IMG/VR virus record: IMGVR_UViG_3300021957_000303
Location: 1 to 23,936 of that record
Reading direction: 5' to 3' (one strand)
From: a virus
Length of the DNA stretch: 23,936 nucleotides
Below the pieces are notes generated by a model, which saw only the letters and a program-made list of their open reading frames with translations, made no database searches and was not told where the DNA came from. The translations under genes were made by a program, and so were the position numbers. The stretch's first letter is position 1. Each line of letters opens with the position of its first letter. This document shows positions 1,861 through 23,936 of this stretch, piece after piece.

Positions 1861-3510
1861 TTACACATAGTTTACATCAGCTACGATAACTTTACCATAG
1901 AATTCACTTCTAACCATTTTCTTAGCGTAACGTGTCATTACACCTTTTCTTGGAGTGAAGTTCTTAGGGTCGTATACTAATGGTGTCATGATTAACGGTA
2001 CATATGGAGCATAAACCGCACCTGTTTCAAGGAAGTTACTTCCTCTGAAACCTGCTAAGATTACGTTATCCAATGCGTAAGGGTTCTTGTAAACAGTAAA
2101 TCTGTTGTTAAGAGCACCTACTTTTTGTACACCCATTGCGAATGAGTTGTTAGTTGAATCACCATCTGTGTCTGCTGCATATCCAGGAATACTCTCGATG
2201 ATAGTTGCTGTTTCTGGACTTACGACCAAGAAGTTAGCTCCACCTCTTAAAGTTTTCTGGTGTATTGCGTTAGATACTGATTGTATCTTGTTTCCAAGAG
2301 TTTGGAACCAAGTACCTTTTGTGTATGCATTTGATTCACCACTTGACTGTGCGAACAAGTTAGTTGCTGAATCATATTCATATCCAACTCTTGCTGACCA
2401 TTTTTCTGTTTTAGCAGTAGCACCTGCGTACAACATATCAAGGATTTCTAAATCGATTTCCATTGAGATGTACTCAGATAGTAATGCAGTTAATTCAGCT
2501 TCAGCGTCAACTGAGTGGTATGCGTTTAAGTCTTGAGCAAGTTCTGGAGTCCAGACTGCTTTTAACTTACGAGTTTTCGCGATTATCGGAATACTCTTTA
2601 GTGCGATATCTAATTCTGGGATATCGATATCAGTTTCAGGGTTTGCATCAACTTGTGCTGCAGTTGCTTCAAAATCACCACGAGTGTAATTGTTAGCTGC
2701 AGTTTTGTGATATTGTACTTTAACTCCACTTGGTACACCTGCTGTATTCTTCAATACGAAGAATGTTACTGCAGTTTTAGCTGCATTTATAGATGTATGT
2801 GCTGGATAGAAAGCATCAAATCCACTACCTGATACTGTGAATGCTCTAACACCATCTGTATCAAAGTTAGCTATTGCTGCGTTTGAAACAGTGATTTTCA
2901 TAAGACCATTGTCTGCTTCTGAACCTAATGCTGCTGATGCAGATAGGTCTGGTTCGAAATTAACATCTTCCCAAGATACAGAACCTGTTGTGAATTCTGT
3001 AGCACTTGTAGCAGATGCTAATGTCATACTTGAAACAGAAACGTCATTGATAGAGTATCCAAATTTACCTGCTCCGTATAAACCACCACTTGCGTCACCA
3101 GAACCTGATGTATTACCATATACATCTGAATCTTCGGTTTGAAGTGAAGTTTGAGCAGTTCCGTATTTGAAGTCAAGATAGAAAATAAGACCTGAAGGTA
3201 AGTTCATTGGTTGAACAGAAACAAATTCCTGTGCAGCCAACTCACCAAAGATTCTACGAACTAATGGAAGTGCAACACCTGACCACTCTTCTGAGTTTGC
3301 AGATGTACCTGTTCTTGAAGCCTCATCAATTAATTGACGAGCCTGATTTTCAAGAAGTACAGCCATTCCGTTTACTTCATGTTCTTTGTCCATTCCTTCT
3401 AAAAGGCCTGTTGGTTCCCATTTCTTGACTAACTTACGAGTTTGTTCTAATAGTTGTCTTTGTGGATTATATCCATCCATCAAAGATTCTACTGATTTAA
3501 ATTTACTCAT
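1861..3510 (-). CDS. 23: Major capsid protein, T4 gp23-like
   Basis: This 549-residue protein (T4 gp23: 521) builds the hexamers of the phage head. Similarity to gp23 is direct: SVQPMNLPSG near residue 98-107, RKLKAVWTPELAQDLNAYH near 314-332 followed by DAEAEL and an EIDLEILDML helix, and near the C-terminus APYVPL followed by DPKNFTPRKGVMTRYA. Residues about 113-290 form a Ser/Gly/Thr-rich segment that differs from T4 and probably includes surface loops. The N-terminal region has ARQLIDE|ASR with the [L/I]-x-E site at E63|A64; T4 gp23 is cut by gp21 at E65|A66 in an LTE|A context, so a processed capsid protein starting at A64 is expected. The ATG has AGGAG upstream and follows the scaffold gene by 14 bases. 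Lack of cysteine and G/A-ending codons fit high expression. Confidence 0.95.
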   Translation of the reverse strand: MSKFKSVESLMDGYNPQRQLLEQTRKLVKKWEPTGLLEGMDKEHEVNGMAVLLENQARQLIDEASRTGTSANSEEWSGVALPLVRRIFGELAAQEFVSVQPMNLPSGLIFYLDFKYGTAQTSLQTEDSDVYGNTSGSGDASGGLYGAGKFGYSINDVSVSSMTLASATSATEFTTGSVSWEDVNFEPDLSASAALGSEADNGLMKITVSNAAIANFDTDGVRAFTVSGSGFDAFYPAHTSINAAKTAVTFFVLKNTAGVPSGVKVQYHKTAANNYTRGDFEATAAQVDANPETDIDIPELDIALKSIPIIAKTRKLKAVWTPELAQDLNAYHSVDAEAELTALLSEYISMEIDLEILDMLYAGATAKTEKWSARVGYEYDSATNLFAQSSGESNAYTKGTWFQTLGNKIQSVSNAIHQKTLRGGANFLVVSPETATIIESIPGYAADTDGDSTNNSFAMGVQKVGALNNRFTVYKNPYALDNVILAGFRGSNFLETGAVYAPYVPLIMTPLVYDPKNFTPRKGVMTRYAKKMVRSEFYGKVIVADVNYV

Positions 3511-5090: not shown

Positions 5091-5762
5091 TTAAATTTTA
5101 GCTTCTGCTTTTGCTTTGTAGTTTTTATCTACATAATTGAAGAACTTCTTTTTCTTTTCATCATCACCTAATTCATCTGGTGATTTAACTCCAAACTTCT
5201 TTAATGCGGATTGGAAGAATTCTTCGTAATCACCTTCTTCAAGTTCACTACCTTTTGGTAAATCATCTTCATCAGGATTTTCTAAACCGATTTTAACTAA
5301 ATCAGATTTATCTGCATCACCTTCAATTTCAAAATATCTACCAAGAACATGACCCATATCTTCATATAAACCACCTAATCTTTGTTGTAATTGTTGTGAT
5401 TCTTGTGCAATTTTACCAAATGATTTTGATAAGTTTGTTAATTCTTTCATATTACGATTTACAGTAACTTTATCAAACCAATCTTCTGTTTCACTTAAAG
5501 TGTAAGATTTTGCGTTATTTGCAATTACTGATAATTTTTCTGCAATCTGTTTAAGATTTTCTTCTTTCTGTAATACTTTACTGAAACTTGTAAATTCTCT
5601 TATTGATTGTTGAATTTGTTGTGCACTAACTTTTTCTTCTTTTTTTCCGTACATATCTTCAACAATACTTGTTAATGAAGTACCACGATTCAATGATGGT
5701 GTAGATACAACTCCACCCACTACTGAAAAGTTTTCTTTTATTAAATCTTTTAATTTTGCCAT
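5091..5762 (-). CDS. Putative internal head protein with capsid-targeting leader
   Basis: This 223-residue protein has no function I recognise. It starts MAKLKDLIKE|NFSVVGG, a leader of the type shared by its neighbours and ending in an [L/I]-x-E site at E10. Residues about 48-150 are helical with coiled-coil character (AQQIQQSIREF, QQLQQRLGGLYEDMG), and the C-terminal third is acidic and then basic (DELGDDEKKKKFFNYV). The ATG has AAGGAG seven bases upstream. It lies between the uncharacterised head-region genes and bS21. By analogy with T4 gp67, gp68 and the internal proteins, it may be a prohead core component; the leader is the only specific evidence. Confidence 0.7.
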   Translation of the reverse strand: MAKLKDLIKENFSVVGGVVSTPSLNRGTSLTSIVEDMYGKKEEKVSAQQIQQSIREFTSFSKVLQKEENLKQIAEKLSVIANNAKSYTLSETEDWFDKVTVNRNMKELTNLSKSFGKIAQESQQLQQRLGGLYEDMGHVLGRYFEIEGDADKSDLVKIGLENPDEDDLPKGSELEEGDYEEFFQSALKKFGVKSPDELGDDEKKKKFFNYVDKNYKAKAEAKI

Positions 5763-5793: not shown

Positions 5794-6393
5794 TTATCTT
5801 CGTTTTTTACCACGCAAATAACTACGAAATCTTTTATCTACTTTTGTCCATAACACACCAATCATATCTCTAACACCTACACTTGTGTCTCCTGTTGGAC
5901 CTGTTTTAATACCACGAATTAAATCCATAGCATCATACTTATTATTTTTTACACCATCCATCATTACTTTGATAGTTTGTGCTGATGCTTTATTAAAAAA
6001 CTTACCCATTTGTTTTATATCTTGTTCAACAAATTGTTTGGCCTCTGGTGATGAATATTTCAACATTGGAAAACTATTCACTCCTTTACCCTTTAATGAA
6101 CCTGGTACATATGTTCCACCACTATCTACTTCTTTTAAACCATCTTTACCATCAAGATAAGTGTGAACACCTTGTAAACTTTCTAATGCAATAGTCAATT
6201 CTGATTGTAACCAAGCTGGTAATTGAACTTTACCATCTCCATCAGAATCACCATTTTCAATTTTTTGGTAAATCATTTTAGAAAGTTTCATACATCTTTC
6301 TAATTGTGATTTGGCCATATCACCTTCATGGTCTCCCTCATTTAATCTAAAATCTTTCCATTGATTCCACATTTTATGTGTCATACTACTCAT
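5794..6393 (-). CDS. Putative prohead core or internal head protein
   Basis: A 199-residue protein that starts by a TAATG overlap with the gene before it. Residues 1-19 end in FRLNE|GDHEGD, an L-N-E|G site of the prohead protease type, so a mature form from G20 is plausible. The next segment, DMAKSQLERCMKLSKMIY (about 25-42) with AWLQSELTIALESLQGVHTYL (two blocks, about 60-80), is a helical motif that I recognise in head-region proteins of marine T4-like phages. The rest contains KQFVEQDIKQMGKFFNKAS and a very basic tail (RFRSYLRGKKRR), which could touch DNA. ATGs at codons 1 and 4 are both possible starts; I chose the first for its overlap with the upstream stop. No enzymatic motif is visible. 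Confidence 0.7.
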   Translation of the reverse strand: MSSMTHKMWNQWKDFRLNEGDHEGDMAKSQLERCMKLSKMIYQKIENGDSDGDGKVQLPAWLQSELTIALESLQGVHTYLDGKDGLKEVDSGGTYVPGSLKGKGVNSFPMLKYSSPEAKQFVEQDIKQMGKFFNKASAQTIKVMMDGVKNNKYDAMDLIRGIKTGPTGDTSVGVRDMIGVLWTKVDKRFRSYLRGKKRR

Positions 6394-6686
6394 TAGAACC
6401 CCCTATTATATACATCTTTAAAATTACCAAACTTTCTATCAGCTAATCTAAATAATTCTTTATCTAATCTTTCACGAGCTGATTTTAAATCATTAATATC
6501 TCTGAAGTATAAGTGTAATTCAAAAATATGTTCATACATCTGTACTAACTTTTTATTACCAATTAACTTAGCAAGATGTTTTCTAGCTAAAGTATGTTCA
6601 TTTCTATCAGTTAATTTTTCAAGATAATCAATTTGTTTATTATCTAAATCTTTTTTCTCTTGAAGTATATTTTTTAATTTAATCAT
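6393..6686 (-). CDS. Small head-region protein with MIKLK leader
   Basis: A 97-residue protein of unknown function. It begins MIKLKNILQE|KKD, the shared leader with an L-Q-E site at E10. The remainder is helical and highly charged: LARKHLAKLIGNKKLVQMYEH would form one amphipathic helix and DLKSARERLDKELFRLADR another. It overlaps the upstream gene by four bases (ATGA) and the downstream start by one base (TAATG), so translation is probably coupled. Size and composition resemble small prohead core proteins such as T4 gp67/gp68, but no homology can be claimed. Confidence 0.7.
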   Translation of the reverse strand: MIKLKNILQEKKDLDNKQIDYLEKLTDRNEHTLARKHLAKLIGNKKLVQMYEHIFELHLYFRDINDLKSARERLDKELFRLADRKFGNFKDVYNRGF

Positions 6687-7030
6687 TTTTGCATATCCTC
6701 CAATGCTTCATGTGCTTTTAATACTAAGTATACGATATCATCTTTTAGTTCTACATCGTTTTGTTTTCTTACAGCATTCTCTAATTGTTTTACTGCCATT
6801 TTCAAAACTTTTACATCCTTACTCAACATATTATATGCCTTTGGTGTAACTGGAGTTTTACTTGTTGTACTCCTTGGCCCATCACCACCATACATTTTAT
6901 CAATTTTACCTAAATCAGCAGATACTCTCATTTCTTGTATCACCTCTTCATTTACTGATTCTTTAGTGGAACAACATGAATCCCCACAATGACACTCTTC
7001 TTCTTTTAGTAAATCTTTTAACTTAATCAT
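6683..7030 (-). CDS. Small head-region protein with leader and Cys cluster
   Basis: A 115-residue protein of unknown function. It begins MIKLKDLLKE|EE, the shared leader with L-K-E at E10. Directly after it comes a compact cysteine cluster, ECHCGDSCCSTKE (residues 12-24), with four cysteines and a histidine in eight residues, which could hold a metal ion. A flexible Gly/Thr/Pro-rich stretch follows (about 48-65), then a C-terminal helix pair (VLKMAVKQLENAVRKQND, LVLKAHEALEDM) with coiled-coil character. The start overlaps the preceding stop as TAATG. The leader again suggests packaging into the prohead; the Cys cluster is unusual among the neighbours. Confidence 0.7.
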   Translation of the reverse strand: MIKLKDLLKEEECHCGDSCCSTKESVNEEVIQEMRVSADLGKIDKMYGGDGPRSTTSKTPVTPKAYNMLSKDVKVLKMAVKQLENAVRKQNDVELKDDIVYLVLKAHEALEDMQK

Positions 7031-8769
7031 TAATAATATCCTCTGAATTTGTTTTTAAGTATTAAATTGACTATTTCAGCAACTTCTTTACCATATTTTG
7101 GTGAATTTCTATAGGATTTAGGATGTTCAGGATTTCTCTTTTCATAATCAATATCATCTTGAACTGCATTATTATAATAAGTAACCTTATCATATAATCT
7201 ATCCATTGCATCAGTTATATTTCTCATCAATTCCATTGCTTGCATTTCAGGTGCTCGAGTATTACCTAAACCTTTTAGTAATTTTTTAGCATCTGCATTT
7301 GGTTTACCACCAATCAAACCTGTAATTAATTTATCAGTATAATCTTTTGCTTTTTTAATTTTTGCTTTAACTTTTTCTGGGTCATCATACATTGACCTAA
7401 TAGAGTCTTCGTATTTATCTTTATTTTGTCTTTTGAAAGATTCATCATCTCTCCATTTCCAAGAACCAACTTGTATATCTGACCTTAATTTTCTAACTTC
7501 TTTACCACCCATATATGGCATGTTTTCCTCAAGTGATATTTTGTAAAATTCAACTCCGTTAATTTTCTTTACTGATGCTGCGTTTTGATATCCAAATTGA
7601 TTTAAACCAAAGGTACGATTTTCAGATGTTGAGAACCCATATCCTTTTGTATCTGCAACATTTATATCTTTTTTTCTATTCTTTTCAGATTCTCTCCAAG
7701 ATTTTGTCCACCAAACTGCCTTACCATCTTTGAAAACACTCAAGACAACACCTTTATCAACTTCTAAATCACTTCTCCAATAAGATTTTCCTTTAGCTGG
7801 TAAACTTACTTTTTTACCAGTTACTGCAATCACAATACCTTTACCAGATAGTTTTGCAGTTTTTTCAATCATATCATCCGTTACTTTATTTGCTCTTACA
7901 CCTAATTTAGCCAACCACCCATAGAAATCACTATCTAATTTGAAATTTTGTCTATTGGTGAATTTTCTTAATAATTTACTTTGTAATGCCTCTACTAAAT
8001 AAGATACTTTTGATTCTCTTAGTACATCTTTTAATTTTATCATACCTTCTCTTGTCTCCTTTTTAGATTCTGATACATCAGAAAAATATTCTTTCTTAAA
8101 TTTGTCTAATTTCTCTAAATAAGGTAACATTTTTTTATAAGGTAGTTTACCAACTCCATCAACTGCGGCTTCATAATCCTCACCGAGTTCTTCTTCCATA
8201 TCATTGGAAATTTGATAGAGTTCATTTTCTAATTGTTTCTTAAGTTTTTTATCTTCAATATATTCAAGTGATTCTATCGCACTATCAACACCACTACTTA
8301 TACCTTCGTAAAACTCATCTCCACCACCAGGAAACTTTTGCTTTAATGCTGGAAGAGTGATATTATTATAAAATGTTCCACTATCCCCCTTAGATTTATC
8401 TAATTGTCTAGCATTAATCGTATCTAATCCTGAATTAGAATCTATGTTAGAAACAACATCCATAAATTCATCTTTATTTTCATCAGAAACTTGTGATGAA
8501 AGTGATTTAGGTTTATCTTCCATACCATCATTATCTCTATCGAAATCTTTTGAAGTAAATCCTGTACCTTTAGGTTTTTCTTTTTCACCATCTTTATCAA
8601 CCTTTACAAGTTTACCACTTTTATCGGCTTTAAAAGAAATATGGTCATCATCTTTTTTACCATATCCTTTACCTTTCCAAACCAAACCAAGTTTTCTGGC
8701 TTTTTCTTTTTCAGAATCTTTTAACTTTGGAGCATCAGCTTCCATCAATAATGTTTTTAATTTTATCAT
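7030..8769 (-). CDS. Two-part internal head protein with tandem MIKLK leaders
   Basis: A 579-residue protein that looks like two internal head proteins fused. Part one starts MIKLKTLLME|ADAP. It has a module EKARKLGLVWKGKGYGKKD (about 22-40) followed by GKLVKVD and DFDRD, also present in the 476-aa protein at 10784-12214, and then an acidic helical region. At residue 243 a complete second leader appears, MIKLKDVLRE|SK, closely followed by YLVE|A at 260. Part two (about 260-579) contains a beta-rich stretch (GIVIAVTGKKVSLPAKGKSYW) and a C-terminal helical region (ITDAMDRLYDKVTYYNNAV). The internal ATG (8041-8043) has GGAG 11 bases and GAAGG about one base upstream, so a separate 337-aa product is possible but its ribosome binding site is badly spaced. 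No catalytic motif was identified. Confidence 0.75.
   Translation of the reverse strand: MIKLKTLLMEADAPKLKDSEKEKARKLGLVWKGKGYGKKDDDHISFKADKSGKLVKVDKDGEKEKPKGTGFTSKDFDRDNDGMEDKPKSLSSQVSDENKDEFMDVVSNIDSNSGLDTINARQLDKSKGDSGTFYNNITLPALKQKFPGGGDEFYEGISSGVDSAIESLEYIEDKKLKKQLENELYQISNDMEEELGEDYEAAVDGVGKLPYKKMLPYLEKLDKFKKEYFSDVSESKKETREGMIKLKDVLRESKVSYLVEALQSKLLRKFTNRQNFKLDSDFYGWLAKLGVRANKVTDDMIEKTAKLSGKGIVIAVTGKKVSLPAKGKSYWRSDLEVDKGVVLSVFKDGKAVWWTKSWRESEKNRKKDINVADTKGYGFSTSENRTFGLNQFGYQNAASVKKINGVEFYKISLEENMPYMGGKEVRKLRSDIQVGSWKWRDDESFKRQNKDKYEDSIRSMYDDPEKVKAKIKKAKDYTDKLITGLIGGKPNADAKKLLKGLGNTRAPEMQAMELMRNITDAMDRLYDKVTYYNNAVQDDIDYEKRNPEHPKSYRNSPKYGKEVAEIVNLILKNKFRGYY
8640..8712 (-). repeat. Direct repeat copy A (GKGYGKK module)
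   Basis: A 73-base stretch matching 12001-12073 with three differences by eye. It codes for the module KARKLGLVWKGKGYGKKDDD and flanking residues of the 579-aa protein. Such nucleotide identity at a distance of 3.36 kb points to recent duplication or gene conversion. Confidence 0.9.
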
Positions 8770-10163: not shown

Positions 10164-10784
10164 TTATTCTCCTCTTATGATTTTATTAATCAAATCTTCT
10201 GCTTTACAATAAACACCACAAGTTCTACCTTGTGTTTGTGTTTTATTTACTCCCTCTTGTAAAGGATGCATAAACGCTCCATGTGTAGAAGGATTACTTA
10301 CAAAATCAAAAGCGATTAATTCAAAGTCATCTCCTACTTTTAATGCTTGTTGGCCATCTGATTCAGTAACTTGTTCTACTGAACCCATACCACGAGAACT
10401 GATACCTAACTTGATACCATTTTTAAATAGTTCTCTTAAAATATTACCACTTGGTGTGGTTAGGATTTCAACTGTTCCTAATAAATTATCACCTTCAAAG
10501 TGCATTTCTGTAATATTGTGAGATACATTTTGTAAATTAACAACTGAACTATCTGGGTGGTCTAATTCACCAAGTGCTCTTTTTTGAGAAATAAAATTTT
10601 GTGAATAATTTTTTGCTTCTCTGGTTAGAATATCCATTGGATATACTCTTCCATTTTGGTTTTTTGCATCTGCTCTTTGTAATACACCTTTAACAACTAA
10701 CTTTCCGTTGTTTTCTTTCATCGCCTCATTTATTTGAGTCGGTGTTATTTCAAATGGTATATAATCTACAATTAAGTTTTTCAT
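10164..10784 (-). CDS. 21: Prohead core protease, T4 gp21-like
   Basis: This 206-residue protein (T4 gp21: 212) is the serine protease that digests the scaffold and trims capsid and internal proteins during head maturation. The family signatures are visible: GVLQRADAKNQNGRVYP (34-50), LGELDHPDSS with probable catalytic H76, LGISSRGMGS with the nucleophilic serine at 129 or 130, and FDFVSNPST (159-167). An INE20|A21 site near the N-terminus fits self-activation, as T4 gp21 trims itself, and LQE177|G178 could be a C-terminal cut. The start overlaps the stop of the 476-aa gene (TAATG). Its place among many proteins with [L/I]-x-E leaders fits its role as their processing enzyme. Two cysteines near the C-terminus (CGVYC) are of unknown meaning. 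Confidence 0.93.
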   Translation of the reverse strand: MKNLIVDYIPFEITPTQINEAMKENNGKLVVKGVLQRADAKNQNGRVYPMDILTREAKNYSQNFISQKRALGELDHPDSSVVNLQNVSHNITEMHFEGDNLLGTVEILTTPSGNILRELFKNGIKLGISSRGMGSVEQVTESDGQQALKVGDDFELIAFDFVSNPSTHGAFMHPLQEGVNKTQTQGRTCGVYCKAEDLINKIIRGE

Positions 10785-12214
10785 TATTTCATCCTTTTCA
10801 CCAATCCTACAGCTTCTCTCATGAATTTAGTTACATTATCTTTGTAGGATTTTTTAATTTGTTTTGCTAAATCTTTGTTTTCAGAGTCATTTTTCATCAT
10901 ACCTTCTAATTTTAATACTCTTTTTCTTAATATACCCTCTTCTTTTGCAAACATTCTTAATTCTTTTTTAGCCTTTTCAACATCTTCACGAGATTCTTGA
11001 ATATTACCTTGATGTGCTTTCATCACATCATTTAATGTTGGTAGTGGTTGTCCAAATTCTCTGTTAAATATATTAACACTTTCAACTAAATACTTATTAC
11101 TTGGATTAACATTATCATACATACCACCACTTCTATTTCTACCAGTTCTATATCCAACCATACTTACTGGCCCTCTAATCTTTTGACCTTTTTTTGGTTT
11201 TGCAATTCCTGTTAGTGTACTATAATTAACATTCATAAATTTTTCTACATCAGATGTTAAATCTTTTAAACCTTTTATAGCATCTTCTTTTTCTTCATCA
11301 TCTCCAAATTCTATATCATCGTGAAGTCGACTTAATTCTAAGCCAAACTCATCATTAACGATAGCATATTGGTCATCGGCTTGTTCGATATCTTCTAATT
11401 CATTTGAAACATCTCGAAGTAAGTCATCCAGTTTTTCGGCTGTTCCCATTGGGTCTTTTTTTATTTGTTCTGAATCATTCAACTCTTTAGCTGTTCGAAC
11501 TTTATCTATACTTGCTGATTTTTTGTTTCCAGATGTTGAGTATTTTATATGAAAATCCTTAAGTATTTTTGATTTTTCTTTCATTTCTTCTTCAGGAACT
11601 TCTGATAAATCATAATCATACTCATCCTCATCTCTTATAAGGGCATCTTCAAGTTTATCTAAATCTTCTTGTGGAATTTGTCCATACATTTCATCATACA
11701 CACGATTTACTTGAGAGTTCCATTCCTCTGTATTATTACTAAATTTGCTGGTAAAATAACTTACTGGAATATTTTCACTATACTTATCCCAATCCATACC
11801 ATCGATTGTGTCTTGAGCATCATCATTAAGTTTTACTGGTTCACCTTTTTTAACTAAAGGTTTATCTTTACTTGTTGGATTTGGACCATCTGATGGTAGT
11901 TCTCTATCGAAATCACTACCACTCAATCCTTTAGATTTAGGGTCTTGTTTTTCACCATCATCAACTTTTGTTAATTTACCATCAACATTTTTATGTGAGA
12001 TATGGTCAGCATCTTTTTTACCATATCCTTTACCTTTCCAAACCAAACCAAGTTTTTTAGCTTTTTCTTTTTCTTTATCATCAAGATGTTGTTCTTTACC
12101 ATCTTCTTCTTTTCTTAACTTGTATGCTTTGGTAGTGTCGGCTAGTGTTGGTAATGGTTCACCAAACTTTCTTTCATTCCATAAATTTTCGTTTATTAAA
12201 TTTTTTAATTTCAT
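10784..12214 (-). CDS. Acidic head-region protein with leader and duplicated modules
   Basis: A 476-residue acidic protein of unknown function. It starts MKLKNLINE|N, a shorter form of the shared leader with an I-N-E site at E9. Directly after it comes NERKFGEPLPTLADTTKAY, and a related copy, FNREFGQPLPTLNDVMKAH, occurs at 383-401, again directly after a candidate site (YLVE378|S). Residues about 48-105 carry the KKLGLVWKGKGYGKKD module shared with the 579-aa protein. The middle (about 180-330) is very acidic and helical; the end (about 410-476) is basic with coiled-coil potential. A further IQE407|S site lies after the second PLPTL copy. It sits directly before the protease gene and overlaps it by one base. 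Packaging in the prohead is inferred from the leader. Confidence 0.72.
   Translation of the reverse strand: MKLKNLINENLWNERKFGEPLPTLADTTKAYKLRKEEDGKEQHLDDKEKEKAKKLGLVWKGKGYGKKDADHISHKNVDGKLTKVDDGEKQDPKSKGLSGSDFDRELPSDGPNPTSKDKPLVKKGEPVKLNDDAQDTIDGMDWDKYSENIPVSYFTSKFSNNTEEWNSQVNRVYDEMYGQIPQEDLDKLEDALIRDEDEYDYDLSEVPEEEMKEKSKILKDFHIKYSTSGNKKSASIDKVRTAKELNDSEQIKKDPMGTAEKLDDLLRDVSNELEDIEQADDQYAIVNDEFGLELSRLHDDIEFGDDEEKEDAIKGLKDLTSDVEKFMNVNYSTLTGIAKPKKGQKIRGPVSMVGYRTGRNRSGGMYDNVNPSNKYLVESVNIFNREFGQPLPTLNDVMKAHQGNIQESREDVEKAKKELRMFAKEEGILRKRVLKLEGMMKNDSENKDLAKQIKKSYKDNVTKFMREAVGLVKRMK
12001..12073 (-). repeat. Direct repeat copy B (GKGYGKK module)
   Basis: This copy matches 8640-8712 over 73 bases with three differences. 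It codes for KAKKLGLVWKGKGYGKKDAD in the 476-aa protein. Both copies are in the same reading frame and orientation. Confidence 0.9.
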
Positions 12215-13971: not shown

Positions 13972-15798
13972 TTATTTATCTTCCTTAAAATCTTTATATT
14001 CTTCATTTATTTCTTCACTATCGATTGTCTCTTTTAAAATCTCTTTTGCCTTTTTACCAAATGATTTCTTTAATGCATCATAATGTGCTAAAGCTAAAGG
14101 AACACCTGTTCTACCCAATGGGTCTCTACCACGAGCACTTCCATCTTTACCATGATGAGGTACTTCTTTAGGTCTTCCTGCACCATCAAATCCACCCTCT
14201 GGAGCTCCACCTTTATCTCGGAATATAGAGCCTGATTTAGATTCTTGGTCAAATCCGTAATCATCATTTGATGATTGCATATCACTTGGTGTTCCAACTG
14301 ATTCACCTGTATCTGCTGGGTCATTACCCTCTACAGATATTTGTTCAAATCTAAATTTGGTTTTTTGGTCATGTACAATTTGTGTATCCATTTCTTTGAT
14401 TTGGTCATCAGAGAAATTAAATAAATTTTTATAAATCCATTCACTACTCATCATTTGATTTTCTTTCATATCACGAGCAAGATTTATTTTGTTACTCCAC
14501 AATTCTATCTTTTCTTGTTCATAGATTGTAGATGGATTAGTTAACTCTAATTCAAAATTTGTTAATTCTGCGTCTGTATATCCTTGTGAGTATAAATGTA
14601 CAACAGCAATCTTAGTTAACTCACTAACAAGAATTCGTTGAACTCTTTCAATAGTACGAGCAAATCTAACATCCTCTGCTGCTAATGTTGCTTTTGAACC
14701 TAATCCCTCTTCATATCCTAAGAACGCTTTTGGTACATGAAGTGCTGCCAACATTCTATTTTTTAGATATTCAATATCTTCTGTAGTTTCATAAGTCATA
14801 CCAGGTAGTGATTCGATTTGTGTTCCACTATCTCCACCACGAACTGGTAAGAAGAAATCTTCTGTTAAGTTCTGTATGTTAAACTTCAAGTTATAATCAC
14901 CAGTATCATTATCTATGAATGGTGTTTTCTTCATTTTGTTGATAATTCTTTGCATATAGTTATCAACCTCGTTTGGTGGTATATTACCAATATCAATCTT
15001 GAAGATTCTCTTTTCTGGTGCTCTCATGATTCTATGGATTAACATAGCATCTTCCATCAATGTAACTTGTTTCCATACTTTACGAGCACTTTCTAAAATA
15101 GATTTACCATAAGGTAATAAATTACTATCACTTGCTAATCTAAAGTGTGCAATTTGAAAGTTCTCAAATTCTATCTTTTTACCTGTTGTTGAGCGAGCAA
15201 AATAAGGATGTGTTGTTTGTGTAGCTTCCATTCTGAATTTAGTATAATAAGGATTTTCAGGGTCTTCTCCCTCTATACGAAGTAATTCATAAGATGAAAC
15301 TGGTACAACATTAGTAATACCATACTTATCCTCTACATCTAAGTATAAAAAGAAATCACCATATTTAACAAGGTTTCTTGTCCAAGGCCATAAATTAAAT
15401 TCAATATTCAATATATCATAAAATAAATTATGTAGAATTTCTTTGATGTTATTATTATCCGTTACGATGTTTAATACTTCACCATATGGATTTTTCATCG
15501 TACATTCATCAGCATATATATCAAGTGCAGATGCAATAATACTATCACTATCCATACTTTCATAGTCTTTGAACAATCCTAATCTTGCTGCTTGCAATTG
15601 TGCATATGTGGAATATCCACTATTAACCAAATCCAATCCACTATGTAGTTTAGAATATCTATCTACTAAGTGTGATTTAGTCATTGCCTGTATTTGTTCA
15701 GTATCTGCAACTTTTAATTTCTTACCACCAACATTACGAACGATTACATTTGTACTAAATAATCTCCTCAGTCTAGCGTATAATGATGTATCTGCCAT
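13972..15798 (-). CDS. 20: Portal vertex protein, T4 gp20-like
   Basis: This 608-residue protein forms the dodecameric ring through which DNA enters and leaves the head and on which prohead assembly starts. It has the T4-type portal layout: an N-terminal segment, then DSIIASALDIYADECT (about 80-95), LWPWTRNLVKYGDFFLYLD (about 136-154), the stem/crown region with TLMEDAMLIHRIMRAPEKR (about 245-263), and GLGSKATLAAEDVRFARTI (about 365-383). It is longer than T4 gp20 (524 aa) because of a Gly/Asp-rich C-terminal extension (about 495-608), which includes FRDKGGAPEGGFDGAGRP and a final charged tail containing INEEYKDFKEDK. The start has GAGG upstream and lies 14 bases after the terminase stop. The sheath and tube genes found between 17 and 20 in T4 are missing here. 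Confidence 0.93.
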   Translation of the reverse strand: MADTSLYARLRRLFSTNVIVRNVGGKKLKVADTEQIQAMTKSHLVDRYSKLHSGLDLVNSGYSTYAQLQAARLGLFKDYESMDSDSIIASALDIYADECTMKNPYGEVLNIVTDNNNIKEILHNLFYDILNIEFNLWPWTRNLVKYGDFFLYLDVEDKYGITNVVPVSSYELLRIEGEDPENPYYTKFRMEATQTTHPYFARSTTGKKIEFENFQIAHFRLASDSNLLPYGKSILESARKVWKQVTLMEDAMLIHRIMRAPEKRIFKIDIGNIPPNEVDNYMQRIINKMKKTPFIDNDTGDYNLKFNIQNLTEDFFLPVRGGDSGTQIESLPGMTYETTEDIEYLKNRMLAALHVPKAFLGYEEGLGSKATLAAEDVRFARTIERVQRILVSELTKIAVVHLYSQGYTDAELTNFELELTNPSTIYEQEKIELWSNKINLARDMKENQMMSSEWIYKNLFNFSDDQIKEMDTQIVHDQKTKFRFEQISVEGNDPADTGESVGTPSDMQSSNDDYGFDQESKSGSIFRDKGGAPEGGFDGAGRPKEVPHHGKDGSARGRDPLGRTGVPLALAHYDALKKSFGKKAKEILKETIDSEEINEEYKDFKEDK

Positions 15799-15812: not shown

Positions 15813-17381
15813 TTATAAGAGCCATTCTAAAGACTCTTTTTTCTTGTTTACTTCCCACTCCCAATTTTCATTTGTACTTTCTTCTGGAGTGTAAAGACCG
15901 TCAATATCTTGCATTCTATTTAAAGTCTTTTTTGTTAATTCAATTCCCTCAGTTCGTAATCTTAATGCAGTATCACGAACCCATAAACCGATAGCAAATG
16001 ACATAACCAAATCATCATTGTATCCTACCATTGCTTCAGCTCTATTGTTATTGTAGATAAAAGTAAATAATTCATCAATCAAACGATTACTACGAATCAC
16101 TACACTTTCATCCCTAAAATATTCCTCAAGTTTTGCAATAATTAATGGTCTGGTTTTCATTGATGTGGTAAATCCAGCCACCATATTTTTTTCTTGAGCT
16201 CTATATCGATTTGACATTTGGTGTGCAATATCAATATATTGTAAATCTTTACTTGTATAAAATAGATTAGGATAATCCCTATCTATCACTTGTTGGATTG
16301 TTGCCCAACCAATATTATTGTTTTCTATAATTAGTAAAGCATCATTATATTCTGTTGAAATACTCACTAACATATTACCAAAATCTTTAGTAGGTACTCT
16401 ACCCTTGTACTCTGCAACTTGTTCTACCTTTTCAATATCAATTACATGAAAAGCAGAATAATCTGCTGAATCTCCTCTACCTACATCCGCACATACTACA
16501 TAATTCTTTGTATAATCTGGTGGTTCCCAAATCCAACAATTATTATCAATTCCTCTTTTTTCAATTGGGTCTTGTACATATTTTTCTCTACATTCTTCTA
16601 ATATAGTACCATCAATAACAGAAGTACCAGAAGTAACAAAATCACAATCACATTCTTGTGCAGCACCTTGTACACCTAACAATTTATCTTGGTCTTCTCT
16701 CCAAGTCTCATCTCTATCAGGATGTACAGTCCAATGAAGTTTGATAAAGTTAAACATACCACGACCTTCTTCAGCCTCTACCCAAGTTTTGTGAAACCAA
16801 TTACCCACACCATTAGGTGTTGATAGTGCAATACATTGTCCACCAGTGGTTAAAGTACTTTGTGCCGCAGTCCATATTTGGTCAATCTTATCAATAAATG
16901 CTGCCTCATCTAATATCAATAATGATAGAGCTTCTGAACGAGCTGCTTCAGGTCCACTTGATACTGCTTTAATCTGTGAACCATTGACATATCGAAGATT
17001 TAATTTATTATCCTCAACACATCTTTGTTTTAACCAACTTGGTAAGTTTGCGTGCATAACACGAACTTTTGTTACCAAGTTTTTTGCCACATCTTGTTTT
17101 GTTGCAATTACCAAAATATTTTTATCTTGATGAAAGGTCATCATCCACAATGAATAACCCGCAGTTAAAGTACTGATACCTAACTGACGAGCTTTCAATA
17201 TGATGTTCATACGACTAGATTCAAATTCCTTTACGGTATTCCTTTGAAATTCGTACAAATCAAATGGTATTTTTCCCTGTATTGGATGTTGAATCACACA
17301 ATACTTTGATAAAAAGTATGCAGGGTCTTTAGCACATTTGATATACTCTTGTTTTATTGCATCTTTAAATTGTTCTGCCAT
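15813..17381 (-). CDS. 17: Terminase large subunit, T4 gp17-like
   Basis: This 522-residue ATPase-nuclease pumps DNA into the prohead and cuts the concatemer. The ATPase half shows a T4-type Walker A, ARQLGIST (64-71), a Walker B LSLLILDEAAFID (152-164) with catalytic E159, and a coupling motif LSTPNG (186-191). The RNase H-like nuclease half shows CADVGRGDSADYSAF with D299, LLIIENNN with E353, and GYNDDLVMSF with D456/D457, in the order known for gp17. It is shorter than T4 gp17 (610 aa), mainly at the N-terminus. The start overlaps the stop of the 124-aa gene (TAATG). No gp16-type small subunit is evident beside it. Confidence 0.95.
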   Translation of the reverse strand: MAEQFKDAIKQEYIKCAKDPAYFLSKYCVIQHPIQGKIPFDLYEFQRNTVKEFESSRMNIILKARQLGISTLTAGYSLWMMTFHQDKNILVIATKQDVAKNLVTKVRVMHANLPSWLKQRCVEDNKLNLRYVNGSQIKAVSSGPEAARSEALSLLILDEAAFIDKIDQIWTAAQSTLTTGGQCIALSTPNGVGNWFHKTWVEAEEGRGMFNFIKLHWTVHPDRDETWREDQDKLLGVQGAAQECDCDFVTSGTSVIDGTILEECREKYVQDPIEKRGIDNNCWIWEPPDYTKNYVVCADVGRGDSADYSAFHVIDIEKVEQVAEYKGRVPTKDFGNMLVSISTEYNDALLIIENNNIGWATIQQVIDRDYPNLFYTSKDLQYIDIAHQMSNRYRAQEKNMVAGFTTSMKTRPLIIAKLEEYFRDESVVIRSNRLIDELFTFIYNNNRAEAMVGYNDDLVMSFAIGLWVRDTALRLRTEGIELTKKTLNRMQDIDGLYTPEESTNENWEWEVNKKKESLEWLL

Positions 17382-18857: not shown

Positions 18858-21800
18858 CTATCCAAATTTTATACTACCAAGTATTTGATTGATTGGAGCA
18901 AATGCACCAGTAAACTTATATACTTTACCTTTGTATTTAAATACTATACCTTCACTTGGTACTATTGCATCTAAACCACCAATCTTCTGTAGTTTTTCAA
19001 TTTGTGTTTTTAGTTTTTTTAATTTTTCTATATTATCAGGTTTTTGTAAATCTTTCATTGCACTAATCATTTCTTTTCTCATTTTTTGAATAGTCTTATC
19101 GGGATTAACTGCCATATACCCACTTATATTTTTAAGTATTTCTGTACCCACTTGAAAGAATAAAATCTCAAATGGTTTAATGTTCTGTTTGAACATTTTA
19201 TTATGGTCAAGTTTATCTGTTTTTAATATCCATTCTAAGAACTTTGGATTTTCTTTATAATCTTTTTTAATATTTGCTATCTTGTATCCTTTATCAAAGT
19301 ATGCCCATCTCTTTACTAACTTAGCAAATTGTGCAGGTTTTAATTTTACTTCAAATTGTTTACTAGCATTAAAAATATACTCTCTCCAATATGATTCGTG
19401 GTACATACCTAAAGTATCTTTATCACTTAATGCATATTGTGATTGTAGTTTCTTTATTTTTCCTAAATACATACTTTTCTTTTTACCAAAATCTTGTACC
19501 TTTGGAACCTTTAAGAAGTTTGGTTTACCAATCTTAAACATTTTTTGTATATGGTTATTTGTTTGTTTAATCATACCTGCCAACATACGAGCACTATCTT
19601 TAGGTTGACCAACTGGTCTACCACTTTCATCATACTCTAATGTTCCGTGAAACACTATTTCTGCCACATCATAATCTACTACATTTGAAGTTGCTGGATA
19701 CATAACCTCTAAATTCATCCATTTCTTACCATTATCAAATATTTTTTCTTTTTGTTTATCTGATAATGAACCAATTGATTTTTCTAAATCTTTCATAGCA
19801 CCTACAAATGCCTTTTTAATCTCACCTCTACCGGAAAACATACTTGCTATACCAGCAGTGGTTGGTGATGTTTTACCAAAATTCTTTAGGTGTCCTTTAT
19901 TACGAGCTGCTCTTAATTTCCCATCAATCCAACTTACCATTAGATTTTGTCCATCAAGTTTCTCTGTAACACCATCTTCTCTATCTAACTTTCCTCCCAA
20001 TCCATTAATAACTATCATCTTTAAGTCTGAAAATGTAAGATTATTATCATCAAATGGATGACTCATATGTCCATAAGCTCCACCCTCTATTAATAAGTCT
20101 ACATCTTTCATAAAACTTTCTTTCATCTGTTTGATTTTATCACCCATCTCTTCTTCTGCAGGTGTTAAATCAAGTTCAACAGCTCTTTGTGTGTTTTGGT
20201 CTTGTGTTTGTACACCTGGTAATGCAGGTGCTTCAACAGGTACACCAGTAACATTTTTTTCATCTGGTGTTAATCCCATCCATTTTAATATTTCAAAATC
20301 TAAACCACTAACAACTTTTTCTATCCACTTTTTATATGCTTTTACCGGGTCTTCACTTGGGAATCTTTCACCATATGGTCCTGCACCTCTTCTACCATAT
20401 GCAACCGTAGGTACTTTATCCAATCTTGTGGTGTAATCTAAACCAGGGTCAATTGCACTATCTCTTAAAATGTAATTAACTAACTCCCAACCCAATCCTT
20501 GTTCTCTATCTCTTTTGTATATTCTATCAATCCATTTTTTTGTTTCTCGTTGATAATCCTCAAATCCATCGTAATATGTAGGTGGCCCATCATCAATAGG
20601 AATACTACCCATTGAAGAACCCTCTATAAGAAACTTATCAAATAGTTCAAATAACTTTTTAAATTTGTTATTCATCATTTTAAACACACCCTTATCGTAG
20701 TATCCAAAGGCCTTTTTAAATAATGTTTCTCTATTTTTTTCAAAATCAGGTGAACCAAGTAATTGTCTCATTACGGTTCCACTCACTTCTTTACCACCAA
20801 CTTTAATAGATTGGTGTGGTGCTGTAAGAATATATCCGTGTTCTGAATAACCTTGAAGATTGTTTTTATTTCTTTTAAAATCTTGATAGTAAGTTTTACC
20901 ACCACCCTTTTTTGTTCCACCTTTTAATCTACCTGCATCTTTCTTACCAAAAATATACACTACTGCTGTAGTTTCAGAATCATACTTTTTCAAAGTATTA
21001 TTTGCAACATAAGGTGTTTTTTCCTTAACAATTCGATTAGATGGAATACCCATTTTTGCCATATGACGAACTTTTTCTTTAAAGTTCATTGGGTGTCTTG
21101 GTGGTTTCTTGATATCACTTGTTGTGATATAAGCTTCATCCACTTGAGATTTTAACCACTCATAAGTTTTTTTATGGTGAGGCCCAAACGGTTGAAATCG
21201 TCCACCATAAATACCTATAACTTTTTTAATCTTTTGTTCGGAAATGGTTGTATTTTCCCCAATTTCCATACTTAAATTTACAAAATTTTCCATATGAATG
21301 TCAAGCTCTTTTTGTAATTTTTTATATCCACTACCATAAGGAACTGAAGTATTTCCTTTCTTCTTCATCTTTTCAACACCTTTTCTACTTGGTGATGGAA
21401 TGATTCCTGCAGGTGCTCCAAACTCTTCACCTAAAAACTTTTTCTTTTCTAATTCTTTTATTTTAGCACCTATTCCTTTACCTGTTAATCCTACAAATTC
21501 CTTACCACCTGCTTTTATACTTAATTCAAAAGTTGCAATTTTACGAAAATCTTTTCCAACTAACTTTCCATAAGATATAATATCTCCTTTAGATAATGTA
21601 GTTTTTTCTTGTATTTTTTTAAAATCATAAATTTTTTCTGGTTTAAATTTATTTAAATAAACTAAAAATGAAATATTTCTTACTTCTTCATTACTATATT
21701 TTAATTGATTTAAAACTTTTGGTAATTTGCTTATGTCCGTTTTTCTTAAAACAGTTGATAAAAATAAAACATAAGACTTGACATTTGGATACGGTTTTTG

Positions 21801-22709
21801 TAATTTTAATTGTGGGAACATTTGTTCTGTAAATTTAAACTTATCAAGTGCTTTCATAAACAATGTAGAGTTTTTTCCTTTCTCTATACCTTTAATAAAT
21901 TCTTCTCTGATTCTCTCTCTACTCACACCTTTTAAACTTGGATTTTTCATTAGAGCAATCTCTGTATCTTTATCCATCTTACCACCGATAACTGCCTGAA
22001 ATCTTAATGCTCTTAACTTTCTCAATGGGTCTTCATCAAATCTTTGTATTGGAACACCAACCGTCTTTACGATTTTATTTTTTAAATCTTCCAATCCACC
22101 TGTTAAATCTACTACTTCATTTTTTTCTATATCATAGAACAATGAATTAATAGTTAAATCTCTACGATTCACATCACCTTGTATATCAGAGAAATCAACT
22201 GCCTTAGGTCTTCTACCTTTACCGATATCTTTTCTGAATGTAGCAATTTCATGTCCACCCACAACCACAACACCAAATTGTTTACCAACTTCATAGGTTT
22301 TCATTCCACCCTTTTTAGCAATCTTCAATACCTCATCTGGTTTTGCATCTGTTGCTAAGTCAAAGTCTTTTGGTGATTTACCAAGTATTGCATCACGAAC
22401 TGCTCCACCTACTATGTATAATTGTTTTTTATTTTTCTTGAATAGTTTATGGATTTTTTTGATATCACTTGGGACTCGTAAAGATATTTTGCCCTCTTGG
22501 ATATTTTCTTTAGGTTCTGTTTTGATTCTAAAGGTTACTACCTTTCTACCATTGATAGTTGGCATTCCATGCTCATCTTTCCCAATGGACTTAACTACAG
22601 TCTTTTTATTTTTAAATCGACCTGTTAAGATAGTATCCCCAACATTTACAGGAATATTTATATCTTCTGTAAGTGGTTTAACTAACCATTCTGTTAGTTT
22701 ATTTGCCAT
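18858..22709 (-). CDS. Three-enzyme fusion: CCA-enzyme-like, NMNAT-like, ligase-like
   Basis: A 1283-residue protein. I chose the ATG at 22707-22709 since AGGAG lies four bases upstream and overlaps the preceding stop. Residues ~85-300 are a class II tRNA nucleotidyltransferase/PcnB head: GGAVRD (101-106), DFDLATDA with D115/D117, NRRDLTINSLFYD (181-193), DEDPLRKLRALRF (225-237). Residues ~495-690 are an NMNAT/cytidylyltransferase fold: YGGRFQPFGPHH (501-512) and VSGTVMR (642-648). Residues ~876-1283 resemble a polynucleotide ligase: TEKLDGQN with nucleophile K917, WMNLEVMYP (997-1005, motif III place), EGIVFK (1253-1258) and KVYKFTG (1262-1268) as motifs IV/V. A 180-residue segment (697-875) is unassigned. 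Candidate prohead protease sites lie at or near domain borders: LTE15|D, IQE72|G, ISE491|Q, LIE696|G, LIE875|G. tRNA/RNA repair or NAD-linked chemistry is inferred; exact substrates are not visible. Confidence 0.85.
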   Translation of the reverse strand: MANKLTEWLVKPLTEDINIPVNVGDTILTGRFKNKKTVVKSIGKDEHGMPTINGRKVVTFRIKTEPKENIQEGKISLRVPSDIKKIHKLFKKNKKQLYIVGGAVRDAILGKSPKDFDLATDAKPDEVLKIAKKGGMKTYEVGKQFGVVVVGGHEIATFRKDIGKGRRPKAVDFSDIQGDVNRRDLTINSLFYDIEKNEVVDLTGGLEDLKNKIVKTVGVPIQRFDEDPLRKLRALRFQAVIGGKMDKDTEIALMKNPSLKGVSRERIREEFIKGIEKGKNSTLFMKALDKFKFTEQMFPQLKLQKPYPNVKSYVLFLSTVLRKTDISKLPKVLNQLKYSNEEVRNISFLVYLNKFKPEKIYDFKKIQEKTTLSKGDIISYGKLVGKDFRKIATFELSIKAGGKEFVGLTGKGIGAKIKELEKKKFLGEEFGAPAGIIPSPSRKGVEKMKKKGNTSVPYGSGYKKLQKELDIHMENFVNLSMEIGENTTISEQKIKKVIGIYGGRFQPFGPHHKKTYEWLKSQVDEAYITTSDIKKPPRHPMNFKEKVRHMAKMGIPSNRIVKEKTPYVANNTLKKYDSETTAVVYIFGKKDAGRLKGGTKKGGGKTYYQDFKRNKNNLQGYSEHGYILTAPHQSIKVGGKEVSGTVMRQLLGSPDFEKNRETLFKKAFGYYDKGVFKMMNNKFKKLFELFDKFLIEGSSMGSIPIDDGPPTYYDGFEDYQRETKKWIDRIYKRDREQGLGWELVNYILRDSAIDPGLDYTTRLDKVPTVAYGRRGAGPYGERFPSEDPVKAYKKWIEKVVSGLDFEILKWMGLTPDEKNVTGVPVEAPALPGVQTQDQNTQRAVELDLTPAEEEMGDKIKQMKESFMKDVDLLIEGGAYGHMSHPFDDNNLTFSDLKMIVINGLGGKLDREDGVTEKLDGQNLMVSWIDGKLRAARNKGHLKNFGKTSPTTAGIASMFSGRGEIKKAFVGAMKDLEKSIGSLSDKQKEKIFDNGKKWMNLEVMYPATSNVVDYDVAEIVFHGTLEYDESGRPVGQPKDSARMLAGMIKQTNNHIQKMFKIGKPNFLKVPKVQDFGKKKSMYLGKIKKLQSQYALSDKDTLGMYHESYWREYIFNASKQFEVKLKPAQFAKLVKRWAYFDKGYKIANIKKDYKENPKFLEWILKTDKLDHNKMFKQNIKPFEILFFQVGTEILKNISGYMAVNPDKTIQKMRKEMISAMKDLQKPDNIEKLKKLKTQIEKLQKIGGLDAIVPSEGIVFKYKGKVYKFTGAFAPINQILGSIKFG

Positions 22710-22716
22710 AACTCTC

Positions 22717-23148
22717 CTACCATTTACGACAAGACCAGTATCTTGCTTTATGACGTGGTCCTGGTGAATCACAATTGTGTCTAGCTCTAAAGTTCTTTCT
22801 AGCCTGTGGATTTGATTTTCTAATTCTCATTGTCCCACCTTTAGCATCTCCACCTTGACCAAAGTTTACCTTAACAACATTTCCTTTTGGATTCTTTACA
22901 TATACTTTAAACTTTTTAGCATCACCTTGCATAGGTTTACCAAGTTTTACTTTTCTTCCTTGATATTCTGCTTCATTAATATCTTCTGGTAATCTCAGAT
23001 ATTCAAAAGTGTATCCGTGTCCCTTTCCATCTACTTCATAGTAGATTTCCATTTCTTCTTTTACACAATTAGGAACTTTTTTTCCATTTTTGTCTTTCAT
23101 ACCGACTTGTTTGTATCCTACCCAACAAGTTCCTCTTGTTTCGTTCAT
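22717..23148 (-). CDS. Two-module protein with internal INE|A site
   Basis: A 143-residue basic protein. I chose the ATG at 23146-23148 because AAGGA lies about eight bases upstream; the longer open frame to 23292 overlaps the preceding gene in another frame and looks like a shadow. Module one, TRGTCWVGYKQVGMKDKNGK followed by VPNCV (4-29), has two cysteines. After LPEDINE|AE, an exact I-N-E|A site at E59, module two starts: YQGRKVKLGKP (62-72), KKFKVYVKNPKGNVVKVNFG (76-95), and a Cys/Arg-rich end FRARHNCDSPGP...ARYWSC. Both modules recur, in my memory, in marine T4-like phage proteins of unknown function. The protease site exactly between them suggests a cleavable fusion. The end could bind metal or nucleic acid. 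Confidence 0.72.
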   Translation of the reverse strand: MNETRGTCWVGYKQVGMKDKNGKKVPNCVKEEMEIYYEVDGKGHGYTFEYLRLPEDINEAEYQGRKVKLGKPMQGDAKKFKVYVKNPKGNVVKVNFGQGGDAKGGTMRIRKSNPQARKNFRARHNCDSPGPRHKARYWSCRKW

Positions 23149-23152
23149 AGTC

Positions 23153-23936
23153 TTATCCTTTCTTCCAACCACCACCTGCGGCTTTGTATTGTTTTGCTGC
23201 CCAACCATTTGCATAAGCTGATGGATATACATCAAACTTCTTTTTTGCTTGAGATTTATAATACGACCACTTAGATTTATCTGTTGGAACATTCTTTTCC
23301 AAGAACATATTTAGTTTATCTTCAGCTACTACTTCTTTCACTGCTGTCTTAACAAGTTCTTTAATGTTCATTGTTGTCTCCTCGTTTGTTTTTACTTCAT
23401 TAATAATTCCACCTCGTTCATTATACCATTTTCTAAATTGTGCTGGTGAACCTACGGTAACTTGACCTGTTGCAATTTTTTCTGCTGCTTTTTCAATGTT
23501 TGGTAAAGCACTTCTCTTTAATAAAAATATATCTTTAACTTTAATTTGATTAACGAGTATTTCGTTCCACCCGTGTTCTGATTTTTCATCTTTTTGACTT
23601 AATATGTGTTTTTTAATTTGTTTTTTGTATTTATCGATAATTTTATAACACATATCAATATACTTTTTAATCCATTTTCTTTTGTATGGCCCTAATGCTT
23701 TTTTAACATTTTTTTTGTGTGCTTGGTGGTCATATTGAGTATCACCATAACCTGTTTCTTTCCTCACTTCAGCATCAACTTTATCTTGTATCTTGTCCCA
23801 AGAATTTTCGTCTATTTTAAGTTTTTCAGTTCCACTTTGTATTTCTTTCCTCATTTTTCTACCGATAGTATCACCTGCTAACCAATACGGGTCAATCCAT
23901 CTACGACCTGTTTTGTCTGGGTGGGTTTGCATATCT
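23153..23936 (-). CDS. 3' part of a gene cut by the window edge, YPSAYANGWAAK module
   Basis: The frame is open to the right edge (a GAT codon precedes the first ATG at 23930-23932), so the true start is probably outside. The visible 260 residues have a basic helical N-terminal part (ALGPYKRKWIKKYIDMCYK; KAAEKIATGQVTVGSPAQF) that I do not recognise. The C-terminal ~45 residues are a compact module, WSYYKSQAKKKFDVYPSAY then ANGWAAKQYKAAGGGWKKG, of the DUF5872 type (name from memory), common in phage and mobile DNA. The two parts are separated by RGGIINE|V and an internal ATG with a strong ribosome binding site, so a 72-aa protein starting MNIKELVKTAVKEV may be made separately. Confidence 0.7.
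   Translation of the reverse strand, partial: DMQTHPDKTGRRWIDPYWLAGDTIGRKMRKEIQSGTEKLKIDENSWDKIQDKVDAEVRKETGYGDTQYDHQAHKKNVKKALGPYKRKWIKKYIDMCYKIIDKYKKQIKKHILSQKDEKSEHGWNEILVNQIKVKDIFLLKRSALPNIEKAAEKIATGQVTVGSPAQFRKWYNERGGIINEVKTNEETTMNIKELVKTAVKEVVAEDKLNMFLEKNVPTDKSKWSYYKSQAKKKFDVYPSAYANGWAAKQYKAAGGGWKKG
23369..23383 (-). promoter_or_regulatory. Strong internal ribosome binding site and start
   Basis: On the minus strand GAGGAGA (23377-23383) is followed after five bases by an in-frame ATG (23369-23371). It is among the best Shine-Dalgarno sites of the window, yet lies inside an open frame that continues upstream. It would yield a 72-aa protein, MNIKELVKTA..., holding the YPSAYANGWAAK module. 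Confidence 0.65.

Follow-up and report, generated by a model that had tools for sequence, protein, structure and literature searches.

The window analysed here, a 23,936-nucleotide stretch of viral DNA (IMG/VR virus record IMGVR_UViG_3300021957_000303, positions 1 to 23,936), comes from the part of a marine T4-like myovirus genome that encodes head proteins and contains an uninterrupted open reading frame (ORF) of 1283 amino acids, complement(18858..22709), with its ATG at 22709. Its product most probably represents a T4-like head-cargo polyprotein that is cut at the joints between its modules by the prohead protease; from sequence comparison and from the analogy with T4, on which cleavage, packaging and injection are proposed, the probability of this reading is estimated at roughly 0.8. 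The chain comprises a leader, a small N-terminal domain, a CCA-type nucleotidyltransferase, a linker, an NMNAT-like domain, a conserved middle domain and a ligase-like domain. An initial annotation of the window had described a single-frame fusion of three nucleotidyl-transfer enzymes, possibly packaged and released by a protease. The single frame and its length were confirmed, with the minus strand, which had not been given, now added; the domains assigned to the three enzymes were also found, but the chain has more parts than these and more joints (E15, E428 and E864) than the four sites listed at that time (IQE72, ISE491, LIE696 and LIE875), all of which are present. Likewise present are all the motifs cited: GGAVRD, KDFD, NRRD, EDPLRKLRALRF, GGRFQPFGPHH, SGTVMR, EKLDGQN and EGIVFK. 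The proposed release by a head protease is supported by homology breakpoints, by the leaders of single-gene forms, by the joint before the ligase-like domain (73/90) and by an AlphaFold model.

The homologues were obtained by a scan with the whole protein (45 locus entries) and an alignment scan with the third domain (80 entries), with some overlap and at least 586 matching stretches; homologue counts are among the matches listed, and modules were mapped on 56 non-redundant ORFs (30 complete ORFs). The window protein contains 12 [L/I]-x-E sites (ending at residues 7, 15, 72, 269, 368, 419, 428, 485, 491, 688, 696 and 875), or about one per 107 residues; nine of these belong to the leader or stand at, or close to, a module joint, and the CCA domain contains the other three. 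The background frequency in the 56 non-redundant homologues is one per 124 residues. BLAST homology breakpoints among the 56 ORFs, collapsed to 426, were examined in a 13-residue window without assuming any module ends. [L/I]-x-E was found at 134 of the 426 breakpoints, compared with 38.9 ± 6.0 for random positions, a 3.4-fold enrichment whose z-score of 15.9 overstates independence because the homologues are related. The contrast between motifs is unaffected by this kinship and therefore still tells: any hydrophobic-x-E occurred at 196 breakpoints versus 78.8 at random, whereas non-hydrophobic-x-E (1.10-fold), hydrophobic-x-D (0.55-fold) and hydrophobic-x-K (0.91-fold) served as controls. An ordinary multidomain enzyme, active uncut in the infected cell, would carry [L/I]-x-E simply as common linker residues, and Glu and Leu/Ile are common in this AT-rich phage. 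Nevertheless, the enrichment at breakpoints is specific to hydrophobic-x-E rather than to Glu or to hydrophobic residues generally, which makes this explanation unlikely.

The same motif marks the individual module boundaries. By chance, hydrophobic-x-E is expected with a probability of 0.016 at one exact position and 0.13 in a 9-residue window. It was found at the N-boundary of the kinase module in 27 of 27 distinct flanks, within two residues of the N-boundary of the CCA module in 18 of 18 (single-gene forms included) and at the N-boundary of a C45-type module in 13 of 13, and in these three modules the site mostly stands exactly at the joint. Three other modules showed it in 11/12, 16/22 and 21/22 distinct flanks. 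Hydrophobic-x-E occurs just before the NMNAT-like module in 56 of 59 distinct homologues (chance 0.13) and in all 69 distinct joints before the middle domain, and the joint of the ligase-like domain reads [L/I]-x-E/GG in 73 of 90 distinct homologues (here and below, a slash follows the Glu or other residue at the presumed cut). Residues farther upstream of the joints are unrelated between homologues, while the sites are kept.

Moreover, the same modules also occur as separate genes, in which a leader of 9-16 residues stops at the same joint. Single-gene kinases begin MIKLKDLLFE/GVDDPGIFK (L069), MIRLSDLLQE/GIADAGIFK (L067) and MIKLMDLLNE/GVQDKGIFK (L106), a single-gene CCA enzyme (L177) begins MIKSYTQFNLLLE/AQ, and a single-gene ligase-like protein of jumbo phage LR756500.1 starts MKFLKSYEEFLNENLILE/GGSYGHLNHPF. 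The window chain itself begins with MANKLTEWLVKPLTE/ (residues 1-15; 22665..22709, minus strand), a presumed capsid-targeting leader for the whole chain, for which homologues keep KLTEW[LI][VT]KP[FLY][LI]xE/. Both this leader and those of the single-gene modules end in [L/I]-x-E, as do the leaders in the T4 record NC_000866 (IPII and IPIII, MKTYQEFIAE/A; gp24, MAKINELLRE/S; the gp23 site is E65). In T4 the gp21 protease cleaves behind L/I-x-E, and the ten residues at the start of IPIII are enough for packaging (PMC9026906). Since [L/I]-x-E ends at residues 8-12 in 170 of 1068 ORFs of these loci, the leader of one gene says little, and it is the coincidence with an internal joint that counts. 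The NMNAT-like, middle and ligase-like domains are never separated in the complete homologues; a joint function could be the reason and would favour an enzyme that works uncut. Against this, the leaders of single-gene forms stop at the joint, and sister phages split the modules over separate genes. In the window's own phage (contig L001, identical to the window across the polyprotein gene), the kinase and another module are separate upstream genes, although the chains of relatives include them.

A further argument comes from a C45 autoproteolytic acyltransferase/hydrolase module that is found in sister polyproteins but not in the window. It was assigned from profiles (NF040521 matches 11 of 12 members, best E-value 1.3e-11, below the curated cutoff where shown; PF03417 matches one member at 3.5e-6), and its AlphaFold model was poor (pLDDT, the predicted local distance difference test score, 45) and was not used. 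The nucleophile of C45 enzymes, which are Ntn-hydrolases, is a Cys required at the N-terminus. In 18 of 18 cases a Cys in the expected nucleophile place directly follows hydrophobic-x-E (..VDE/CIAIAKKFGDDIVIGKNRD), so that a cut at the joint would free the Cys and give the active form; this need for a free N-terminal Cys also speaks against an uncut enzyme. The C45 module may cleave itself at the same bond. Another processing route can be considered, by a host protease or by the chain itself. C45 proenzymes self-cleave before Cys, as their family name says, and polyvalent proteins frequently contain an embedded peptidase domain (PMC5512222). However, Pfam found no peptidase domain in the window protein or in the five homologues scanned whole, one weak sub-threshold M28 match being obtained in a swapped module. 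The motif at the joints also agrees with both the T4 gp21 rule and the capsid site IDE63/A of the same genome, making this route very unlikely for the window protein.

In an AlphaFold model of residues 430-1283 (23 homologues in the alignment), the NMNAT-like core is confidently modelled between about 491 and 691, residues 692-887, which take in the middle domain, have low confidence, and most of the ligase-like part between about 888 and 1195 is again confident. The sites 491, 696 and 875 thus border on the confidently folded regions or fall outside them and are not buried there, a point on which the initial annotation had proposed that its reading could fail.

Several observations weigh against the polyprotein reading. 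The AlphaFold model is moderate overall (mean pLDDT 58). Conservation of the four sites relative to within-domain sites, proposed in the initial annotation as a test, proved not to discriminate: sites within domains at 563 and 916 are conserved in 23 of 23 homologues, equal to the joint sites, and site conservation alone therefore cannot separate joints from interior. On this reading, sites 269, 368 and 419 within the CCA domain would have to be shielded by the fold. The site before the ligase-like domain is missing from phage LR756508.1, and in one clade (16 of 90) LLLM/GG stands in place of [L/I]-x-E there, with a site about 14 residues upstream kept. This clade (L006, L088, L062, L067, L071 and others) reads ELLLM/GGAYGH, and its ligase-like domain is possibly matured differently. 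The virion NMNAT-like protein of cyanophage S-SCSM1, discussed below, is at best remotely related (BLAST E 0.3), and the cyanophage authors considered that their virion NMNAT-like protein could be co-purifying or carry-over (PMC9602691, PMC10665884). Finally, the case for a cargo polyprotein is comparative.

All parts of the chain are encoded on the minus strand. The leader is followed by a small N-terminal domain (residues 16-72; 22494..22664) that ends with IQE72/ and is present in nearly all complete homologues; at locus L018 it is displaced and now lies behind a kinase module after FFE/SIKIPVKVGD. The CCA/poly(A) nucleotidyltransferase module (residues 73-428; 21426..22493), ending LGE428/, matched PF01743 (PolyA_pol, residues 97-214, 6.5e-31), PF12627 (PolyA_pol_RNAbd, residues 245-302, 5.9e-6) and phrog_2244 (2.6e-57); it combines a Pol-beta head with an RNA-binding region, and GGAVRD...D[FY]DLAT was found in the ten variants collected. 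A basic linker module (IPSPSRKGVEKMKKKGNTSVPYGSGYKK; residues 429-491; 21237..21425), short and shared with homologues, ends with ISE491/, just before which pLDDT falls below 50. The NMNAT-like nucleotidyltransferase module (residues 492-696; 20622..21236), ending LIE696/, matched PF01467 (CTP_transf_like, residues 500-584, 2.2e-5), and its fold aligned to the NMNAT structure 2r5w_B (VIA Z 10.6, root-mean-square deviation 3.8, 166 residues aligned). Of 65 distinct sequences, 63 have GPHH, GLHH or GIHH in place of the canonical HxGH motif and two have HSGH or HRGH, and an active NMNAT is therefore not claimed; the earlier suggestion that this domain supplies NAD is weakened, and NAD synthesis by it is doubtful from its sequence. 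Among isolated phages, BLAST with the NMNAT-like domain gave two matches, Microcystis phage Mel-JY01 and one uncultured phage. Mel-JY01 (PP395634.1) codes for a chain of NMNAT-like and ligase-like parts that contains ..HIFSE/DDSF and ..NIIAE/GGLGGH.

The conserved middle domain (residues 697-864; 20118..20621), whose fold was not recognized, is present in all complete homologues and ends with MKE864/. Between E864 and E875 lies a short spacer, SFMKDVDLLIE (residues 865-875; 20085..20117), with the E864 site kept in 20 of 23 and the E875 site in 16 of 23 sequences of the homologue alignment. The last module (residues 876-1283 plus the stop; 18858..20084) would be a ligase-like covalent nucleotidyltransferase: motif I KxDG, as EK[LT]DG, is invariant in 104 of 104 homologues, and as Pfam gave no match for this domain the assignment is a motif-level reading. 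A comparison with BFVD gave weak similarity to RNA ligases (E about 0.01). A PDB sequence search with this domain returned nothing useful, and a structural re-alignment listed no ligase chain, its list being filled by the NMNAT domain and hence uninformative.

The homologues are mosaic. The 30 complete ORFs show 23 module orders around a constant core of NMNAT-like, middle and ligase-like domains, with variable slots before and inside the core. These slots hold the CCA enzyme, a Zeta/AAA_33-type P-loop kinase, an HD domain (PF01966, 4e-9), the C45-type hydrolase, segments that look ParB-like and several modules without classification. At least two unrelated catalytic domains thus stand in one chain that is mosaic across relatives, as in polyvalent proteins. 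Two swapped modules of about 290 and 330 residues (L005, L001:3345-4748, L034) have strongly conserved STFT..GWNEI and GHGSSGFS..EKEITRSSKSKAKV motifs; searches of Pfam and of PDB sequences found nothing for either, and their interpretation as Alt-like ADP-ribosyltransferases was rejected, having no support in these searches. The 1907-residue version at locus L050 (NZWA01000031.1) contains a ParB-like, a CCA and one further module, and its contig had been placed in a Flavobacteriales metagenome-assembled genome. This was the one phage contig obtained from the search of bacterial and archaeal genomes; it gives a weak hint of the host, or reflects mis-binning.

By analogy with T4, the N-terminal leader would bring the chain into the prohead core, where the S77 prohead protease would cut after Glu at the hydrophobic-x-Glu joints near residues 15, 72, 428, 491, 696, 864 and 875, positions proposed from the comparative evidence. 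The predicted products are the small N-terminal domain, a CCA-type nucleotidyltransferase, an NMNAT-like protein, the middle domain and a ligase-like covalent nucleotidyltransferase. Once released, the enzymes would be retained in the head and injected with the DNA into the next cell, probably acting before phage gene expression. The combination of a CCA enzyme, kinase, HD domain and ligase-like enzyme suggests a function in mending RNA that host anticodon nucleases have cleaved; it is plausible that the enzyme set best fits repair of tRNA or RNA damaged by host defences, which is the weakest step of the proposal.

The presumed cutter lies in the window: an S77-type prohead protease (10164..10784, minus strand; phrog_207, 7.9e-54) with GELDHP and GISSRG motifs, which itself has a C-terminal LQE/GV site. 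Its specificity is inferred to match the joints, and the major capsid protein (1861..3510, minus strand), named by position and sequence, has a propeptide site, LIDE63/A, read at residue 63. The head genes are all on the minus strand and further include the terminase (15813-17381, PHROGs match), the portal (13972-15798) and neck genes, the last two named by position and sequence. The terminase lies less than 4 kb downstream of the polyprotein gene in 38 of 44 loci. This adjacency to head genes would also suit a chain that is cut by the prohead protease but serves head assembly, like T4 gp22 and gp67, with enzymes that act in the producing cell or exit the head without being delivered; the core proteins of T4 end up as several fragments and are for the most part removed (PMC9026906). 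Nevertheless, the modules are catalytic-type domains that are freely swapped, unlike scaffold proteins, and T4 Alt and the internal proteins with such leaders are retained and ejected, so that a role confined to assembly appears quite improbable.

Five other window ORFs carry the same leader, all on the minus strand and recognized from the sequence and the site census: MIKLKTLLME/ (7030..8769), MIKLKDLLKE/ (6683..7030), MIKLKNILQE/ (6393..6686), MAKLKDLIKE/ (5091..5762) and MKLKNLINE/ (10784..12214). The first has a second, internal leader, MIKLKDVLRE/, at about residues 243-252; it looks like a fusion of two packaged-protein genes with each leader retained, and judging from these features it is probably a packaged protein and possibly a second small polyprotein. 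In the ORF at 10784-12214 an internal repeat was seen, NLWNERKFGEPLPTLADTTKAY after the leader returning as NIFNREFGQPLPTLNDVMKAH near residue 380. Upstream of the polyprotein, ORFs 22717-23292 and 23153-23932 (minus strand) share 140 bases, read in different frames. The downstream ORF, whose true start is probably later (MNETRGTCW..), carries an INE/AEYQGRKVKLGKPM joint followed by a module that recurs at L050:457-825. The other (23153..23932) is the 3' part of an upstream gene whose module is found inside the polyprotein in relatives (57% identity to the L005 polyprotein module), its full 468-residue version being seen at L001:3345-4748. Farther upstream of the window, L001:1489-2680 holds genes for a lysozyme-like protein and a small ferredoxin-like protein with 4Fe-4S motifs.

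Related features occur in known systems. The NMNAT-like virion protein of S-SCSM1 (L189:26820-28049, 409 residues) begins MKSFLQFLKE/AAESG, like a T4 capsid-targeting sequence (CTS), a resemblance that to our knowledge has not been pointed out before. NMNAT-like proteins were found by mass spectrometry in T4-like cyanophage virions (PMC9602691, PMC10665884), which speaks for the cargo reading. The virions of S-SCSM1, S-CBWM1, S-SZBM1 and S-CREM2 have an NMNAT/cytidylyltransferase-like protein; however, that of S-SCSM1 is a separate gene of very distant sequence, whose annotation includes neither a fused CCA nor a fused ligase-like domain. The N-terminus of window ORF 8766-9884 (minus strand), MPSKSKAQQRFMGLVHAYNKGD (pattern MPxxSKAQQRFMGxVHA), resembles the S-SCSM1 virion protein SSCSM1_93 (MPAVSKAQQRFMGMVHAVKKGD, L189:29627-29836), also detected by mass spectrometry.

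T4 IPI-IPIII and Alt resemble the window chain in their short N-terminal CTS leader ending in [L/I]-x-E, in the S77 prohead protease (gp21) and in the wide variation of packaged proteins among relatives behind a conserved leader, and Alt is an injected enzyme. In T4, however, each cargo has its own gene and one leader (Alt also a C-terminal cut), whereas here up to about ten modules form one chain with a site per joint. Polyvalent proteins (Iyer et al. 2017, PMC5512222) are likewise multidomain and mosaic, with unrelated activities, proposed delivery with DNA and a polyprotein analogy drawn by the authors, but their processing was proposed mainly through embedded peptidases, whereas here the sites are those of a separate prohead protease and Pfam finds no embedded peptidase. 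Phage P1 DarA and DdrB are cleaved, built into the head and implicated against host restriction (per PMC5512222); no homology to them was found, and they are not interchangeable enzyme strings joined by [L/I]-x-E. In SPN3US and phiKZ, the prohead protease cuts several packaged head proteins, some at several sites, but propeptides are removed, the motif is A-x-E, and release of several enzymes from one chain is not described (PMC10052503). A search of the literature on prohead proteases and polyproteins led to polyvalent proteins and an Aquificae virus replication polyprotein, neither of which is the same thing. A chain of swappable enzymes joined by prohead protease sites was not described in the open literature searched, subscription literature and preprints lying outside that search. 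Packaged T4 proteins with a CTS and polyvalent proteins are thus known, and what appears new is their combination, as swappable enzymes joined by the sites of a separate prohead protease.

It seems likely that the head protease is a general polyprotein processor in marine T4-like phages, by which any enzyme placed between two hydrophobic-x-Glu joints of one leader-bearing chain would be packaged, freed (or even activated, in the case of the Cys-nucleophile hydrolase) and injected, as a plug-in arsenal that evolves by module shuffling and by gene fusion and fission. If this is true, a very abundant group of marine phages (at least 586 related stretches) carries interchangeable enzymes into cells as one cleavable chain, and capsid maturation is tied directly to effector release. 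Large mosaic 'cytidyltransferase-like' phage proteins would then be explained, the leader and joint would serve as a sequence rule by which packaged effectors could be picked out among unannotated genes of marine phages, and the swapped modules would form a ready candidate list of counter-defence enzymes.

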